A DNA stretch of 52,543 bases from a virus: the IMG/VR virus record IMGVR_UViG_3300033145_003423, positions 1 through 52,543 of that record; one strand, given 5' to 3'. Below, piece after piece: positions 1 to 41,135 of this stretch. The position numbers and the translations under genes are program-made. The notes below the pieces were generated by a model. The model was not told the origin of the DNA, searched no databases, and worked only from the letters and a program-made list of their open reading frames with translations. Within the stretch, counting starts at the first letter, position 1; each line of letters opens with the position of its first letter.

Positions 1-861
1 ATGAGTAAAGATGCTTTTTATTTCTCACACGATGCAAATGCAAGAAACGACCCCAAGATATTAGCCATGCGAAGTATTTGTGGCTCTGAAGGTTACGGCT
101 GGTACTGGATGCTAATTGAACTTATGCGAGAGCAAGAGAATTATTGCCTATCTATAGCTGGCAAATACGATTACAATGCGATTGCCATGCAATTGCAATG
201 CGAACCGGATGCTATCAAAACTTTTATTACAGATTGCATCAATGAATTTCATTTATACGAAACAGACGGGCAATTATTTTGGAGTGATTCTCTGTTAAGA
301 CGTATGGGGAAGATGAATAAACTTCGTGATAAACGAAAATTAGCGGCTCACAAAGGTGCGGAAGCACGGTGGTCTGATGCCAAACGCATGCCAAACGCAT
401 GCCAAACGGATGCGATTGATATGCCAAAACATGCCAAAGAAAAGAAAACTAAAGAAAAGAAAATAGAAACTAAATCAAACAAAATAACAGATGAACACAT
501 CTCTATCTTCAACCATTGGAACCAACAAGAAATAATAATACATAAAAACCTAACCGAAGAAATCAAAAAAGCAATAGAAGCTGCTCTCAAAAAACATTCA
601 CTTGAAGAGATTCTCCAATCAATCGCAAACTTCTCAACCGCTTACAAAAATGAAAAATACGAAATGTGTAGTTACAAATGGGGTTTGGTTACGTTCTTGA
701 AACAAAAGAACGCCCTGCCCCATTTTCTTGATGACGGAGAAAAGTGGCTGAGTTATTTGGATTGGCAGAAGAAGAAGCCCGCACAACAACCCAAAAAGCA
801 GAAGTGTGAGACAACCGGGCAGGAGTACGAGCTGTTCGATGCGAGGGGAGAAAGGGGTTGA
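1..861 (+). CDS. DUF4373-type phage protein, full-length copy
   Basis: This 286-residue protein has the DUF4373 (Lin1244/Lin1753-like) N-terminal domain found in Firmicutes phages next to replication genes. The pattern is visible in residues 1-100: aromatic residues and DANARNDPKI near the start, GYGWYWMLIELMRE around 35-50, then a helical region ending in RRMGKMNKLRDKRK. A low-complexity linker follows (about 120-160, repeated MPNACQ/MPKHA units and KEKKTKEKK), then a C-terminal domain with LEEILQSIANFSTAYKNE, WGLVTFL and LSYLDW. The function is unproven; a DNA-binding role in replication initiation is my inference. The ATG is the first base of the window, so the upstream region cannot be seen. 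A second, truncated copy lies at 44246-44623. Confidence 0.75.
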   Translation: MSKDAFYFSHDANARNDPKILAMRSICGSEGYGWYWMLIELMREQENYCLSIAGKYDYNAIAMQLQCEPDAIKTFITDCINEFHLYETDGQLFWSDSLLRRMGKMNKLRDKRKLAAHKGAEARWSDAKRMPNACQTDAIDMPKHAKEKKTKEKKIETKSNKITDEHISIFNHWNQQEIIIHKNLTEEIKKAIEAALKKHSLEEILQSIANFSTAYKNEKYEMCSYKWGLVTFLKQKNALPHFLDDGEKWLSYLDWQKKKPAQQPKKQKCETTGQEYELFDARGERG

Positions 862-2138
862 TAGAGATAAGACAACAAGCAATGTTTAACGAACTAATAA
901 TAGATTCCTTCGCTGGTGGTGGCGGTGCAAGCACTGGCATTCATCTAGCCATAGGCCGGTCGGTTGACATCGCAATCAATCACGACCCGGCGGCAATAGC
1001 CATGCATAAAGTTAATCATCCAAATACAAAACATTTTTGCGAATCAGTTTGGGATGTAGACCCGCGAGAAGTTACGCAAGGGCAACCAGTGGGATTGATG
1101 TGGCTATCCCCGGACTGCTCTCATTTTTCAAAGGCAAAAGGTGGCAAGCCGGTAAAAAAGAATATCAGAGGGCTTGCATGGATAGCAGTAAAATGGGCAG
1201 CTACAGTCAGACCCAGATTAATCATATTGGAGAATGTAGAAGAATTTAAAACATGGGGGCCGCTTACAAAAGAGGGTTATCCGGACATAGACCAAAAAGG
1301 CCGCACATTCGATTCTTTTGTAAATGCACTTAAACGACATGGATATCAAGTAGATTACAGAGAACTTCGGGCTTGCGATTATGGAGCCCCTACGAGCCGC
1401 AAAAGGTTTTTTATGGTTGCTAGATGTGATGGCCAGCCTATTGCGTGGCCAGAAACCACCCACGGCGACCCTAAAAGCCTAGAAGTTATAAGCGGAAAGC
1501 TGAAACCGTGGAGGACAGCAGCAGAAATCATAGATTGGTCAATACCCTGTCCATCAATCTTTGAGAGGAAAAAACCTTTGGTCGAAAACACCATGAAGCG
1601 AATAGCGCGAGGAATACAAAAGTTTGTAATAGACACCCCGAATCCGTTTATTGTTCCGCAAACTAACCAGTCAAACAAAAGCGACAATTCCCAACTGGTT
1701 GCTGCATTCCTAACTCAATACCACAGTTACGAGGGGGACGGAGCCAGAGGACAAACGCTGGATAGACCGCTTTTAACACTAGATACATCTAACAGATATG
1801 CATTAGTTCAAGCCTTCTTAATCGCTTATTACGGGACATCCAGAGGCAGTAAATGTAATGAACCGCTACAAACAGTGGTGTCAAAAGACCGATTCGGCTT
1901 AATTACGATTCACAATCAAGACTACAGAATAGTGGATATTGGCATGAGAATGCTGGCACCGCGCGAGCTGTTTAACGCACAAGGATTTCCTGTCGATTAC
2001 ATAATTGATGTAGATTCTAAAGGCAAACGGTATCCAAAGACCGCGCAGGTGGCCAGATGTGGCAATGCAGTACCACCTCCCTTTGCTGAAGCATTAGTTA
2101 GGGCTAATCTGCCAGAACTTTGTAGTGTAGCGGCGTAA
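858..2138 (+). CDS. DNA (cytosine-5) methyltransferase, orphan
   Basis: The protein transfers a methyl group from S-adenosylmethionine to cytosine in DNA. The family motifs are readable: motif I DSFAGGGGASTG at residues 16-27, motif IV SPDCSHFS with the catalytic Cys at about 87, motif VI ENVEEF at 125-130, and YGAPTSRKRFF at about 175-185. RCGNAVPPPFAEAL near the C-terminus is the usual final motif. The TTG start at 858 overlaps the end of the preceding gene and has a GGGGAG Shine-Dalgarno about 7 bases upstream; the ATG at 882 has no comparable site. No restriction endonuclease gene is adjacent, so it is probably an orphan enzyme protecting phage DNA from host restriction. Confidence 0.93.
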   Translation: MIEIRQQAMFNELIIDSFAGGGGASTGIHLAIGRSVDIAINHDPAAIAMHKVNHPNTKHFCESVWDVDPREVTQGQPVGLMWLSPDCSHFSKAKGGKPVKKNIRGLAWIAVKWAATVRPRLIILENVEEFKTWGPLTKEGYPDIDQKGRTFDSFVNALKRHGYQVDYRELRACDYGAPTSRKRFFMVARCDGQPIAWPETTHGDPKSLEVISGKLKPWRTAAEIIDWSIPCPSIFERKKPLVENTMKRIARGIQKFVIDTPNPFIVPQTNQSNKSDNSQLVAAFLTQYHSYEGDGARGQTLDRPLLTLDTSNRYALVQAFLIAYYGTSRGSKCNEPLQTVVSKDRFGLITIHNQDYRIVDIGMRMLAPRELFNAQGFPVDYIIDVDSKGKRYPKTAQVARCGNAVPPPFAEALVRANLPELCSVAA

Positions 2139-34245: not shown

Positions 34246-34521
34246 CTACCATCCAAACATGCTATTCTTCCTTCCCTGCATCTTCTTGTAAACTTCTTCA
34301 AACTGTACGTTGGTTCTAATCCTCTCCTTGTCAACTTCGCTTGTGCCTTTTGGGAATACTAGCTTTGAGTCGATTGATGACTCTGGGTGCCGGGACATGC
34401 AGAAATAACGGCAATTATGTACAATCAAACCACCGCAAATACTGAAGTTATGATAGCCGCCTACCGTTAAATCGTAAGTATCTGCTTTTCCTGCATATCT
34501 AACAGTTTTAACTTTAGCCAT
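34246..34521 (-). CDS. terL: Split intein C-segment fused to terminase large subunit C-terminus
   Basis: A 91-residue protein. Residues 2-36 are an intein C-terminal segment: block F TYDLTVGGYHNFSICGG (15-31) and block G LIVHN followed by Cys37. The rest (CRYFCMSRHPE... KMQGRKNSMFGW) is the C-terminus of the large terminase. The N-terminal partner is encoded at 35155-36630; together they would splice into HINES-CRYF, the region of the last nuclease-domain carboxylate. The ATG overlaps the HNH gene by 8 bases and follows GAGAAAGG. Without trans-splicing this is a useless 55-residue tail. Confidence 0.85.
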   Translation of the reverse strand: MAKVKTVRYAGKADTYDLTVGGYHNFSICGGLIVHNCRYFCMSRHPESSIDSKLVFPKGTSEVDKERIRTNVQFEEVYKKMQGRKNSMFGW

Positions 34522-35155
34522 AAGCCATTACCTTTCTCGGCCTCTGCTTTTTGCCCTTTCGGTTTAAAGCACTAGATATTGCCCCACATTCCTTAGAACA
34601 CGTTTTTGTCTTTCCGTATTTATTGGTTACAAATTCCTCCCCGCAAACAGCACATGTTCTTGTTTCATTATCAACTCCACTTTTGCGCCTAGCTTTTGAC
34701 TTACAATTACTAGAGCAAAACTTAGAACCCCAAGACGCAAACACACTTATTTCGTATTCTTTTCCACAACATCCGCATGTTTTAGTTACCATTTTATCCA
34801 TATACAGACCAAGGGAACCTGGCCAATTCTTTTTAGCAAACTCCCTTGCTTCTTCGCTTTTATGCCATTCTGCAGCTAGTTTCCTTCCCTCCACCCCTAC
34901 TTCGAGCAAGAGCTTTATTCTTTCGGGATTTTTGCCGTGTTTGCTTAAATGCTCACTACCGGGTAACGATTCGTAATTGCTTAACTCGTTGTTATCTTTG
35001 TTTTCGTCTTTATGGTGAATATGATGGCCTTCGGGAATGGGACCCATTTCTTTTTCCCACTTATACCTGTGTAATCTGTGTCCATCGCGACTACTGTAAT
35101 ATCCACTAGCACACCTGTAAAACTTTGTATCATCATAAACAATAATCTGTGACAC
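34514..35155 (-). CDS. Free-standing HNH endonuclease inside split terminase gene
   Basis: A 213-residue protein. RYKWEKEMGPIPEGHHIHHK with DENKDNNELSNYE at residues 30-62 is an HNH motif of the type found in phage homing endonucleases. Two treble-clef or zinc-ribbon motifs follow: CGCCGKEYE...FCSSNCKS at about 126-155 and CAVCGEEF...TCSKECG at about 166-190. The GTG start shares one base with the stop of the upstream gene (TAGTG) and follows AAAGGGGGGAGC. It occupies the place where a fused homing domain would be in a contiguous intein, which strongly suggests it moves the split intein. Confidence 0.85.
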   Translation of the reverse strand: MSQIIVYDDTKFYRCASGYYSSRDGHRLHRYKWEKEMGPIPEGHHIHHKDENKDNNELSNYESLPGSEHLSKHGKNPERIKLLLEVGVEGRKLAAEWHKSEEAREFAKKNWPGSLGLYMDKMVTKTCGCCGKEYEISVFASWGSKFCSSNCKSKARRKSGVDNETRTCAVCGEEFVTNKYGKTKTCSKECGAISSALNRKGKKQRPRKVMAYG

Positions 35156-36630
35156 TAAGCTCCCCCCTTTAAACCAATATCAACAATGTCATCCTCAGAA
35201 GTAAGGCGTTGAATTTCCTTCCACCCATTTTGAGTTAGCACTTTGTGGTCTGCCGTTCCTTTGAATTTTCTTCCATCTTCCAATTCAACCTCATATATAT
35301 CTGTATCTGGGCGGGCAAGATGAATATTAAAAAACTCCCCAATAACAGGAGAGTTTTTTTGTTGGTCGTAGCAATGCAAATAACCTCGCTGTCCAACTAA
35401 ATCTTTAATTGAAATACCGCCTTCGGTTGTATCTACAATCGTATCACCGGTTAAACAGCTTTCATTTATGTGCGACACAATGTGCGGCTTATCTGCTGCA
35501 TCCTCTGGATTGTGTTCGTCATGCTGTAACATTGGCAAGTATTTAATAAAGTTTTTGCAAGTGCTGAATATCTGCATCCTTGCGGTTTTACTTACATTGC
35601 CTTCTTCATCTTTTATCTCGAAGGGTTCTAAGTACTCCCTCATTACTCGCCAACCTTGAATACGCTTGTGATTAGCTTTGACAAGCCCTTTAAGCCCTGC
35701 CCGACTCATTATCTCAATGCCAGAGGCGCCCGTTTCTTGGCGTCTGCTCCAAAGGTCGGGGGAAGCGGTTGTATAAGAAATATATTCATCATCAGGCGTC
35801 ATATCAACTATCTTCTCTGCCGCTTTGGTGAGGTTTAGATTGGGTTCGTGTAACTCCCTATAAGCGAATACCTGCCCATTGTTAGCCACCGCCCACCATA
35901 TGCAAGCTGTCATATCTAGGCCGTAATCAAGCGATCTGATTCGCTTCCAGTAGGGGGGTATTTCAAAGGGAGCGACTACGTGTATTTCCGGCTTGAATTC
36001 TCTGAAGAACATTCCCGCAAATGTATTCCAATTACCGTTTAAGTAAGCCTCTCGTAAATCTTCGGGCAAACTTTTTAGTTCGTTTAAGTATTCTGGATTG
36101 CGTTTCATAACCACCGTATTGTCGTAAATTTTGGCAGGAATAAAAACATAATCATCTGGGTTTTCACCTTCTCTGAACTCTCTGTCTATAAAAATTCTCT
36201 TAAACCACTCATGTCCCACTCCCCCCGGATTGGCTGTATAATATCTTCTCGGCCTAAAGGGAACTTTAATAGTCTCAGAAGTACGACAGCATAGTCTAAT
36301 CTGGTTCCACTGAAACTCCGTAAAGTTGGTAGCTTCCTCAAAGCAAACACAGTCATAACTTTGTCCCTGATATTGAATTGTATCTGCATCAGTATCGCAG
36401 TATCCTAATTTAAGCCTTGCGTTTCTCGGAAACATGAAAGATTTCATATCAGCATTGTATTTCGCAACACCACTTAATTCTGCCAATAATGGAATTAAAT
36501 GGTTTTCTTTTAATTCAGGTAATGTACGTCTTAGTAACAATATTTGAATGCCGGGGTACTTGAGGCACAGCATCACACATTTACGCCTTACAGCCCATGA
36601 TTTTCCACCGTCAATATCTGGCACCACCAT
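35155..36630 (-). CDS. terL: Terminase large subunit N-part fused to split intein N-segment
   Basis: A 491-residue frame. Residues 8-391 are terminase: DGGKSW (end of Walker A, 7-12), Walker B CVCFEE (95-99), coupling motif YYTANPGG (130-137), and nuclease carboxylates starting at D235 (RSLDYGLD). Residues 392-491 are an intein N-segment starting CLTGDTIVDTTEGG, with block B GTADHKVLTQNGW at 67-79 of the intein. The extein junction is HINES/C. The first codons (MVVPDI) are out of frame with the true N-terminus, which is in the 36611-36733 fragment. The packaging motor needs both the frameshift to be solved and trans-splicing with the 34246-34521 product. Confidence 0.85.
   Translation of the reverse strand: MVVPDIDGGKSWAVRRKCVMLCLKYPGIQILLLRRTLPELKENHLIPLLAELSGVAKYNADMKSFMFPRNARLKLGYCDTDADTIQYQGQSYDCVCFEEATNFTEFQWNQIRLCCRTSETIKVPFRPRRYYTANPGGVGHEWFKRIFIDREFREGENPDDYVFIPAKIYDNTVVMKRNPEYLNELKSLPEDLREAYLNGNWNTFAGMFFREFKPEIHVVAPFEIPPYWKRIRSLDYGLDMTACIWWAVANNGQVFAYRELHEPNLNLTKAAEKIVDMTPDDEYISYTTASPDLWSRRQETGASGIEIMSRAGLKGLVKANHKRIQGWRVMREYLEPFEIKDEEGNVSKTARMQIFSTCKNFIKYLPMLQHDEHNPEDAADKPHIVSHINESCLTGDTIVDTTEGGISIKDLVGQRGYLHCYDQQKNSPVIGEFFNIHLARPDTDIYEVELEDGRKFKGTADHKVLTQNGWKEIQRLTSEDDIVDIGLKGGA
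35158..35457 (-). other. Intein N-segment (100 codons)
   Basis: The segment starts at Cys of CLTGDT, contains the block B TxxH motif (GTADHKVL), and ends with the stop at 35155-35157. The matching C-segment is 34414-34521 (36 codons). The total of about 136 residues is the size of a mini-intein without a homing domain. Confidence 0.85.
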
Positions 36631-36733
36631 AAGCTATATGCGCTTCCCTTGCTAAGAAAAATTCTTTTTGTTTTTCATTGGGAGTACCTTTTAAGACTAA
36701 TTGTTTGGACTTTTTTTTACTTGCGGTTGCCAT
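36611..36733 (-). pseudogene. terL: Terminase large subunit N-terminal 40 residues, frameshifted in Walker A
   Basis: The ATG at 36733 follows AAGGGGGTGAT. The product starts MATASKKKSKQLVLKGTPNE and reaches EAHIAYGGARY before TGA at 36611-36613. In related terminases AYGGAR continues directly into GGGKSWA; here TATTGAC (7 bases) sits between the Arg codon and GGT GGA AAA, so the frame is shifted. The rest of the gene is readable in another frame (35155-36630). The shift may be a real mutation, a sequencing error, or a recoding site at a TGA-C stop. Confidence 0.7.
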
Positions 36734-36760: not shown

Positions 36761-36788
36761 AAAAAAGAGCCTTTATTCAAGACTCTTT
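36761..36788 (-). terminator. Terminator between ATPase paralog and terminase
   Basis: On the minus strand AAAGAG is separated by about 13 bases from CTCTTT, which runs into TTTTTT. The first arm overlaps the last codons of the upstream paralog gene. It suggests that the terminase has its own expression control. Confidence 0.6.
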
Positions 36789-37386
36789 ATATAGAAAAAT
36801 AATATTGATACAATGCGCTTAATCTTGGCAGGCAAGTATAGTAAAGCCGTGGCTTAAAATCTTTTATAGTCGAACAATTACAAGTTTTTATATGCTCAAC
36901 CTGAAATATCGCAAACAACTCAATATCATCTATGCCAATTACATCAAAACGTTGTCCAGCAAACTTGAAAACATCGTTATCCGCATCACCAATAAAACCA
37001 AGCTGTAAAATAGAACCATTGGGAAAAATAAGCCTGTCGGAACTAGATGTGTGTGTGCAAATATCACCCAATTCCTCGATTAAACGCGATCTATTTTCCA
37101 TGTGTCCTATTACGCCTTTCTTGATCAACAGTAATATATTTAGTCCCGGATATTTCAACGCCATAAGGATTAGCTTTCTTCTTAAAGCCCATGATTTGCC
37201 TGTACCCGCATCACCGCTAAAACAAACAGGGCTCCCTTTCGCAAGGAAAAATTGCTCTTGATCGTGCGTAGGCTTACCCTTTAAGACCAACTCTTTCTTT
37301 GTTTTCTTTTTCCTCTCAATACATGCATGAAGATATTCGGCTTGACTTGCTGTAAATGGAGCCATCTCATCAAACCACATAATCAT
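36787..37386 (-). CDS. Terminase ATPase-only paralog
   Basis: A 199-residue protein homologous to the ATPase half of the large terminase beside it. Shared segments include KELVLKGKP near residue 31, EQFFLAKG, GKSWALRRKLILMALKYPG and the beta strand LNILLL. Walker A is intact (SGDAGTGKSW at 57-66), Walker B is DVIGIDD at 148-154, and a degraded coupling region (LYYTCLP) is near the end. It has no nuclease domain. It could be a decaying duplicate or an accessory packaging ATPase. GGAGGGG lies before the ATG. Confidence 0.7.
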   Translation of the reverse strand: MIMWFDEMAPFTASQAEYLHACIERKKKTKKELVLKGKPTHDQEQFFLAKGSPVCFSGDAGTGKSWALRRKLILMALKYPGLNILLLIKKGVIGHMENRSRLIEELGDICTHTSSSDRLIFPNGSILQLGFIGDADNDVFKFAGQRFDVIGIDDIELFAIFQVEHIKTCNCSTIKDFKPRLYYTCLPRLSALYQYYFSI

Positions 37387-39841: not shown

Positions 39842-39955
39842 GTGACCACTCCCCCACTTACTCTTGAAGTCGGGGCTTCTCGGTTCATCGAGTTCGTAAC
39901 CTGCACTCTCACCGAAGGCACGATCCATGCCTGTATTATTTTTATGACTACTAAG
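39842..39955 (-). ncRNA. Putative omega RNA (right end of TnpB element)
   Basis: In TnpB systems the guide RNA is produced from the 3' end of tnpB and the right end of the element. Here the conserved right-end sequence has paired AGCCCC...GGGG segments and ends in GGTCAC. The adjoining flank, beginning TATTTTCTGGAAGAAT (minus strand), would be the guide. The 5' limit of the RNA is not known. Confidence 0.5.
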
Positions 39956-41045
39956 CAGCTATTTGTGCTAATCCTCTGTTTAATATATTGATAGCTGCGT
40001 TTACGTCCCTGTCAATTTCCAAGCCACAATACGGACATTTATGAGTTCTAACTGACAAAGCTTTTTTAACTATTTCACCGCAACCGCTACATATCTGGCT
40101 GGTGTACTTAGGGTCTACTGCAATAACTCTCTTGCCTGGCGCTTGTTTAGCCTTTGCTTCTAAGATATTGAAGAAGATTCCCCAGCCTGCATCAGATATG
40201 GATTTAGCTAAGCAGTGATTTTTAACCATATTGTTTATTTTTAAATCTTCACGAACAATAGTGTCATAGTTAGTTAATAAGTGACTAGCTACCTTATAAG
40301 CATTGTCTTTACGTTTATTGGAGATATGCTCATGAGTTTTGGCAAGTATAGTAACTGCCTTTTTACGTCTGTTAGAACCTTTTCTCTTGCGGCTGACTGA
40401 TTGACTTTGTTTCTTTAATTTAGATTCAGCTTTACGGTAGTTCTTGGGGTTAGGAATTAATTCGCCATCAGATGTAATTACGAATTCCTTAATACCCATA
40501 TCTATACCAGTATCCTGGTATGTTAGAGGAATCACCTTTTGTTCTACCTCACAGGAAAAACAGACATAATACCTTCCGTTCTTTCTGACAATGGTACAGG
40601 TTTTAATATTACCCTCTACTGCTCGGTGCAATTTTACTTTCACATTACCGATTTTGGATAGCTGTAGGTGCTTGCCCGAAAGTGCAAAACCACTCTGAGG
40701 GTAAGTAAAACTGTTGTACCTTTTATAGCTCTGAAACCTTGGAAAACCAGCTTTTTCACCTTGCTTAAGCCTACGAAAGAAATTTTGATATGCTCTGTCT
40801 AATCGTTTTAATACGTCTTGTAGGACTTGTGACTGTACGGTTTTATATTCCGGCAATACATTCTTGATTTTTGGTAATTCGTTTTGTTGGTTATAATAAC
40901 TAATGTTAATTCCACAATGCTTATATAGGTAGATACGGTGTTCTAAAGCACAATTGTATAGACGCTGGCATAGTGTAACTGTCTGATCTATAACTTCTCT
41001 CTGCTTTTTAGTTGGATATATTCGGTACTTATAGGTTTTTATCAT
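39951..41045 (-). CDS. tnpB: TnpB RNA-guided endonuclease
   Basis: A 364-residue IS605-type TnpB, ancestor group of Cas12. The N-terminus has YKYRIYPTKKQREVIDQTVT. The RuvC-like residues are D182 (TGIDMGIKEF), E266 (IVREDLKI) and D345 (EIDRDVNAAINIL). The zinc ribbon CSGCG...CPYCG lies at 319-340. All key residues are present, so it is probably active. The ATG at 41045 follows GGAGGTGAAAAG; a longer frame to 41096 has no site. It nicks or cuts target DNA at a TAM using the omega RNA, favouring retention of the element. Confidence 0.93.
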   Translation of the reverse strand: MIKTYKYRIYPTKKQREVIDQTVTLCQRLYNCALEHRIYLYKHCGINISYYNQQNELPKIKNVLPEYKTVQSQVLQDVLKRLDRAYQNFFRRLKQGEKAGFPRFQSYKRYNSFTYPQSGFALSGKHLQLSKIGNVKVKLHRAVEGNIKTCTIVRKNGRYYVCFSCEVEQKVIPLTYQDTGIDMGIKEFVITSDGELIPNPKNYRKAESKLKKQSQSVSRKRKGSNRRKKAVTILAKTHEHISNKRKDNAYKVASHLLTNYDTIVREDLKINNMVKNHCLAKSISDAGWGIFFNILEAKAKQAPGKRVIAVDPKYTSQICSGCGEIVKKALSVRTHKCPYCGLEIDRDVNAAINILNRGLAQIAA

Positions 41046-41135
41046 CTTTTCACCTCCTATGTATATCATATAATAGTTACATAACCTTGTCAACATTATT
41101 TATATATAGTATTATAATTATTGGAGGTGTTTAAT

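Follow-up and report, generated by a model that had tools for sequence, protein, structure and literature searches.

A probable split intein at the last nuclease motif of a viral large terminase, with an overlapping HNH endonuclease gene between its halves, and its place in a family of terminase inteins

The large terminase (TerL) gene in one IMG/VR virus record (IMGVR_UViG_3300033145_003423; 52,543 nt, referred to below as the 52.5-kb window) is very probably interrupted by a mobile split intein located at the last TerL nuclease motif, with the HNH endonuclease that lies between the intein halves encoded as an independent overlapping gene and not as an intein domain. On balance we also lean, with a good deal less assurance, toward a more general statement: that in the family of TerL inteins to which this one belongs the HNH endonuclease is normally an overlapping out-of-frame gene rather than a domain, and that the family is widespread and a source of split inteins and fractured genes, its overprinted, split, antisense and re-fused mini states interconverting through the gain of stops and the gain and loss of HNH.

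Materials and methods

Relatives were collected by profile scans of IMG/VR, from which 80 of at least 537 HNH relatives and 80 of 169 relatives of the intein N-segment (IntN) were kept; a scan with the single IntN sequence found no close relatives of this segment and a profile was required. GTDB genomes added 23, the two sources together giving ∼190 loci (numbered with the prefix L), and after removal of near-copies 127 inteins were left. One of these, L173, is contiguous and in-frame, with a short HNH match, a non-TerL site and different exteins, and was left out of the TerL cases. The numbers of stops expected in the intein frame were obtained by shuffling HNH codons among synonymous positions.

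Results and discussion

All parts of the fractured TerL locus are on the minus strand and consecutive ORFs overlap end to end. The first-pass annotation had described three overlapping genes in the region 34246-36733, and while the three-gene overlap stands there are four ORFs and not three, because a TGAC excess (36613-36610) splits TerL at Walker A, giving rise to an extra 40-aa TerL fragment (36733-36611) in another frame. The features of the locus are as follows.

36787-37386, minus strand: truncated paralogue resembling TerL, 199 aa, whose Walker A, SGDAGTGKSW, is intact (39% identity over ∼130 aa; PHROG TerL, 1.9e-10)
36611-36733, minus strand: TerL N-terminal fragment, 40 aa, ending in IAYGGARY and a stop inside Walker A (ORF list and alignment to GGARYGGKSW of L012-L014)
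36610-36613, minus strand: TGAC excess, 4 nt, disrupting the TerL reading frame at Walker A (DNA comparison with L012-L014)
36630-35155, minus strand: main ORF, TerL N-extein plus IntN (restart ATG at 36630)
35458-36630, minus strand: TerL N-extein, ATPase and most of the nuclease domain (PHROG TerL, 4.7e-37; Terminase_6N, 9e-8; TIGR01547, 7e-9)
35155-35457, minus strand: IntN (CLTGDT..., block B TADH), 100 aa and stop (TIGR01445, 2.4e-7; Pfam Intein_splicing positions 10-93)
34514-35155, minus strand: HNH homing endonuclease gene, 213 aa, GTG start (HNH_3, 3.4e-11; phrog_15471, 3e-41; two Cys4 zinc motifs)
34414-34521, minus strand: intein C-segment (IntC; MAKVKTVRYAG...GGLIVHN), 36 aa (TIGR01443; Pfam Intein_splicing positions 122-155)
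34246-34413, minus strand: TerL C-extein, 55 aa, from Cys+1 (CRYFCMSRHPE...; gap-free alignment to intein-free L012-L014)

The IntN residues C1 to A100 are encoded by 35457-35158 and are followed by a TAG stop (35157-35155), with a single nucleotide common to this stop and to the start of the HNH gene, which extends from a GTG at 35155, preceded by a Shine-Dalgarno-like aaaggggggagctta, to a stop at 34514. The third ORF, comprising IntC and the C-extein, runs from an ATG at 34521 to 34246, its start overlapping the HNH stop. The N-extein has matches in 659 phage records (tblastn). Elsewhere in the phage genome a DNA methyltransferase is found at 858-2138 (plus strand; phrog_116, 4.5e-103) and a transposase gene at 39951-41096 (minus strand; phrog_506, 1e-120).

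Profile matches establish the identity of both intein halves, as had been proposed at first pass from an N- and a C-segment: intein_Nterm (TIGR01445, 2.4e-7) is found on IntN, intein_Cterm (TIGR01443, 0.005, with a score above the cut-off) on IntC, and Pfam Intein_splicing matches the two at complementary profile positions. These matches, along with those to HNH_3 (3e-11) and TerL PHROGs (5e-37), argue that the locus is not a product of chance. The window contains each of the class 1 intein residues, Cys1, TxxH (TADH), the penultimate His and terminal Asn (HN) and the +1 Cys, and the host gene consists of two ORFs, one ending and the other starting in an intein half. AlphaFold predicts a HINT fold for L135, the contiguous mini-intein closest to that of the window (pLDDT 95.5; TM 0.94 to the Npu DnaB intein), and the halves in the window, with the residues of a class 1 intein, would be predicted to adopt this fold as read from their contiguous relative.

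In order to place the splice point we rely on the intein-free TerLs of L012-L014, which are 68% identical to that of the window. The TerL of L012 (PHDVTHGPEALRYGAMSRHPE) and the joined exteins PHIVSHINES/CRYFCMSRHPE are equal in length, with 0 residues gained or lost; the first-pass annotation had suggested comparison with intact terminases as a check, and across L012-L014 no gain or loss is seen at HINES/CRYF. The splice site coincides with the final nuclease motif of TerL, which reads H-x-x-D/E-A-x-R-Y throughout the family, in keeping with the original placement. The H and D of this motif probably correspond to the catalytic H400/D403 pair of SPP1 gp2. The TerL profile gave no match to solved structures at E 0.01, and it is the motif, together with the example of SPP1 gp2, that would put the splice site at the catalytic pair.

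While the split-intein locus is thus real, it is not the isolated case that it was initially seen as; rather, it represents one of several states in which a large family of TerL inteins occurs. Among the matches listed, 62 of the 127 inteins are contiguous TerL inteins with an out-of-frame HNH gene (60 in −1 and 2 in +1), a further 49 are split around an HNH gene, and HNH-free inteins number 10 contiguous and 5 split. Most other family members have an unbroken intein with HNH overprinted out of frame, and this includes Acinetobacter phage Highwayman, Tetrasphaera phage TJE1 and a faecal phage, where TerL and intein form one ORF and HNH lies inside it in another frame. The N-exteins match TerL in 10 of 10 representatives. 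Every one of the 49 split loci has an IntC start in frame and a +1 Cys, Ser or Thr, and Cys1 is present in 48 of them.

The frame of HNH varies over the 49 split loci, with 22 in +1, 15 in −1, 9 in the IntN frame and 3 on the opposite strand. An HNH gene on the strand opposite TerL, between split-intein halves, is observed in L020/L042, L047 and L098. The small size of the overlaps in the window, only a few nucleotides, and the common frame of IntN and IntC are what would be expected were programmed frameshifts at the overlaps (TAGTG and ATGGCTAA) to generate a polyprotein, that is, a classical intein with an in-frame HNH domain. However, HNH relative to IntN is found in −1, +1, 0 or antisense among the relatives and no frameshift fits all of these; moreover, HNH has its own start with a Shine-Dalgarno-like sequence, and IntC its own start in 49 of 49 split loci. 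With every frame and the opposite strand in use, we give frameshifting into one classical intein almost no credence.

Support for HNH as an independent overlapping gene is provided by the pattern of stops. Across HNH the intein frame of the 62 contiguous loci contains 0 stops, against 129.5 expected (log10 joint probability ∼ −82). The corresponding number for the 37 sense-strand split loci is 498, against 544.6 expected, which is the neutral level, and in the window the intein frame is not a single open one, with 10 stops within the HNH gene. For close contiguous pairs the overprinted DNA gives pN/pS of ∼0.2 in the HNH frame and ∼1 in the intein frame. This contrast and the absence of stops indicate that HNH is a real protein and that the intein frame over HNH is filler that is kept open. 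An AlphaFold model of the overprinted L104 agrees with such a role for the intein frame, with pLDDT values of ∼91 predicted for residues 1-90 and 280-319 and of <50 for residues 91-278.

Loci L015-L017, from three assemblies, have the same three overlapping genes, with HNH 62% identical, and as judged from their sequences carry the fractured-TerL arrangement independently of the window record. Comparison of the window with L015 gives dN/dS values of 0.17 for IntN and 0.14 for IntC and pN/pS of 0.32 for HNH, purifying selection from which we conclude that all three are maintained. In L028 both intein halves are kept and HNH is frameshifted, as would follow if the host depended on the parts of the intein and not on the endonuclease. 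The order TerL-IntN, HNH, IntC recurs in the Schitoviridae Vibrio phages 1.245.O and 1.238 (NC_055736, MG592604), in whose deposited records a terminase and a 'hedgehog/hint domain protein' are given and most of HNH lacks an annotated gene; gene order is like that of the window, but the Vibrio inteins are distant in the tree. In L015 there is an apparent second intein, seemingly of the LAGLIDADG type, which interrupts the same TerL shortly before Walker B (∼1746-2730) and ends in TMWTGQ ahead of SQQFDILLFDEM.

The break at Walker A raises the question of the state of the host gene. Loci L012-L014 read GGARYGGKSW at Walker A, without the TGAC of the window, and instead have excesses of 7-8 nt at Walker B; Walker-type breaks of this sort were seen in none of the other loci. 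Insertions in TerL that start with TGAC are thus observed at Walker A in the window (TGAC) and at Walker B in L012 (TGACGAC) and L013/L014 (TGACGTAT). Walker A and Walker B are classical intein sites. As an explanation for these breaks an RF2-like +1 frameshift at TGAC was rejected, since it leaves the frame of L013/L014 unrestored. With its frame broken at Walker A, the host TerL may be non-functional in this virus. The TerL-like paralogue (36787-37386) lies directly upstream of the broken TerL.

It might then be asked whether TerL in this virus has become a pseudogene, with the fracture a stage of its decay, as the TGAC excess, the truncated paralogue upstream and the Walker B excesses in the closest intein-free relatives, L012-L014, would all allow. 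Against this, IntN, IntC and HNH are open and under purifying selection relative to L015, and the splicing residues are intact in split loci despite the neutral level of stops in the intein frame across HNH. We therefore regard decay as an improbable origin of the fracture, and retain a split intein with an independent HNH gene as our reading of the locus.

The relation between the different states can be seen in L166 and L167. The two share 97.1% identity across 3.2 kb upstream and 95.9% across 3.35 kb downstream, and a single segment of ∼650 bp, the HNH gene, sets them apart: L166 has a contiguous mini-intein and L167 a split one. In a tree of 115 inteins (131 columns), many of whose forks are weakly resolved, split inteins and contiguous inteins with HNH cluster strongly by state, with 4 changes when mini-inteins are omitted, and mini-inteins are scattered within the split group, with 8 changes of which at least 5 fall on strongly supported branches. 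This favors repeated loss of HNH with refusion into a mini-intein, the direction being that given by parsimony. The 3' HNH tail kept in L166 is silent as to direction, because the IntC start overlaps the tail.

Intein identity exceeds extein identity in 610 of 658 family pairs (62% and 20%, respectively, for L124/L126, for example), and the inteins of L177 and L163 are 92% identical, differing by the HNH gene, in TerLs that have diverged so strongly that they align poorly. Mobility of the cassette is thus strongly indicated for the family by these comparisons of sequence, but not for the copy in the window. Here the intein and neighboring extein are equally similar to those of L015 (identities of 0.70 and 0.71), with synonymous divergence of the intein, 0.60-0.63, somewhat less than the 0.80 of the extein; recent transfer of the cassette between these two TerLs was entertained and discarded since the identities are equal, leaving transfer of the window's own copy unsupported. 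The C-extein of L015 is 94% identical to that of the intein-free L012, compared with 52% for the rest of TerL, which suggests recombination at the intein.

The HNH protein itself comprises HNH_3 and two Cys4 zinc motifs that are invariant or nearly so in 12 relatives (alignment A1), with the HH, D, N and Cys columns of HNH invariant. The earlier description of a free-standing HNH with two zinc motifs between the halves is therefore correct. Its closest solved structure is the homing enzyme I-HmuI, which does not sit well with a role as an accessory nuclease in packaging, like HK97 gp74 near its terminase. It is the case that HNH nucleases encoded upstream of a terminase can help to cleave cos (as discussed in PMC10448857) and that some members of the present family adjoin TerL without any intein. 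However, within inteins HNH can take any frame and either strand, near-identical kin lack it and it is dead in L028, and the inteins that carry it move between diverged TerLs; a packaging function in place of homing seems to us very doubtful, and we continue to view HNH as a homing enzyme. In L102 what looks to be a fragment of a second, different HNH gene (...LCATCNLSKKAK) immediately precedes the TerL N-extein ORF.

Both fractured genes and HNH insertions in another frame are already in the literature; what would be new to the specialist is to find the series of states within a single TerL family, backed by statistics, rather than the single locus. Fractured genes, with the host gene in two ORFs that include intein halves and an endonuclease gene between them, were reportedly described by Dassa et al. 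in 2009 (NAR 37:2560) from environmental phage sequences, and the endonuclease first described in them is said to belong to a Vsr-like family. The window has the same two-ORF host gene, intein halves and intervening endonuclease, but the latter is HNH_3 with two zinc motifs and not Vsr-like, and the TerL nuclease motif, contiguous overprinted sisters and antisense forms are features of the TerL family.

Other relevant systems include a split PolB intein in Pseudomonas phage MIJ3 with an HNH ORF between the halves (PMC6892783), where the host gene is PolB and not TerL; it is a single case that is not known to have overprinted or antisense relatives. A 2025 report describes an HNH gene concealed out of frame in a methylase that has no intein (PMC11855218, which cites a preprint on non-canonical intein architecture). 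As in the TerL family, this HNH uses another frame of an unbroken host ORF, with start and stop inside the insertion, but in the TerL family HNH occupies the endonuclease site of an intein that should itself be removed by splicing. AceL-TerL and GOS-TerL are naturally split inteins in phage large terminases (PMC11766414), with an atypical split and an IntN of 25-37 aa, in contrast to the 100-aa IntN, 36-aa IntC and canonical endonuclease site of the window. Finally, mycobacteriophage TerL inteins splice and home, and all of those reported are in the ATPase domain (PMC5050341), unlike that of the window in the C-terminal nuclease motif.

Concluding remarks

In the mechanism that we propose, three genes whose translation would be coupled produce TerL-IntN, HNH and IntC-TerL tail, and IntN and IntC would associate into a HINT domain that trans-splices the 55-aa tail onto TerL. 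The packaging nuclease may, as the first-pass annotation proposed, be active only once this has taken place. Judging from the family and the genetic pattern, HNH would cut intein-free TerL alleles near HxxE/D-xRY, with repair copying the whole IntN-HNH-IntC cassette into the cut allele. In relatives the same HNH gene occupies another reading frame inside an unbroken intein; once the intein frame gains stops, or HNH uses another frame or strand, the intein would work only in trans, as in the window, and loss of HNH would restore a contiguous mini-intein, the direction again from parsimony.

The origin of split inteins, and why endonuclease genes sit between their halves, have been open questions since fractured genes were found. 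Because the states occur side by side, and near-identical phages differ only by HNH, the route from whole to split intein becomes testable. The family offers ∼50 natural split inteins among the matches listed, a site of insertion that falls in the TerL nuclease domain and not in the ATPase domain, and an instance of dual coding under selection, where one frame encodes an enzyme and the other has only to stay open. An HNH gene hidden in another frame of whole inteins suggests how split elements arise.
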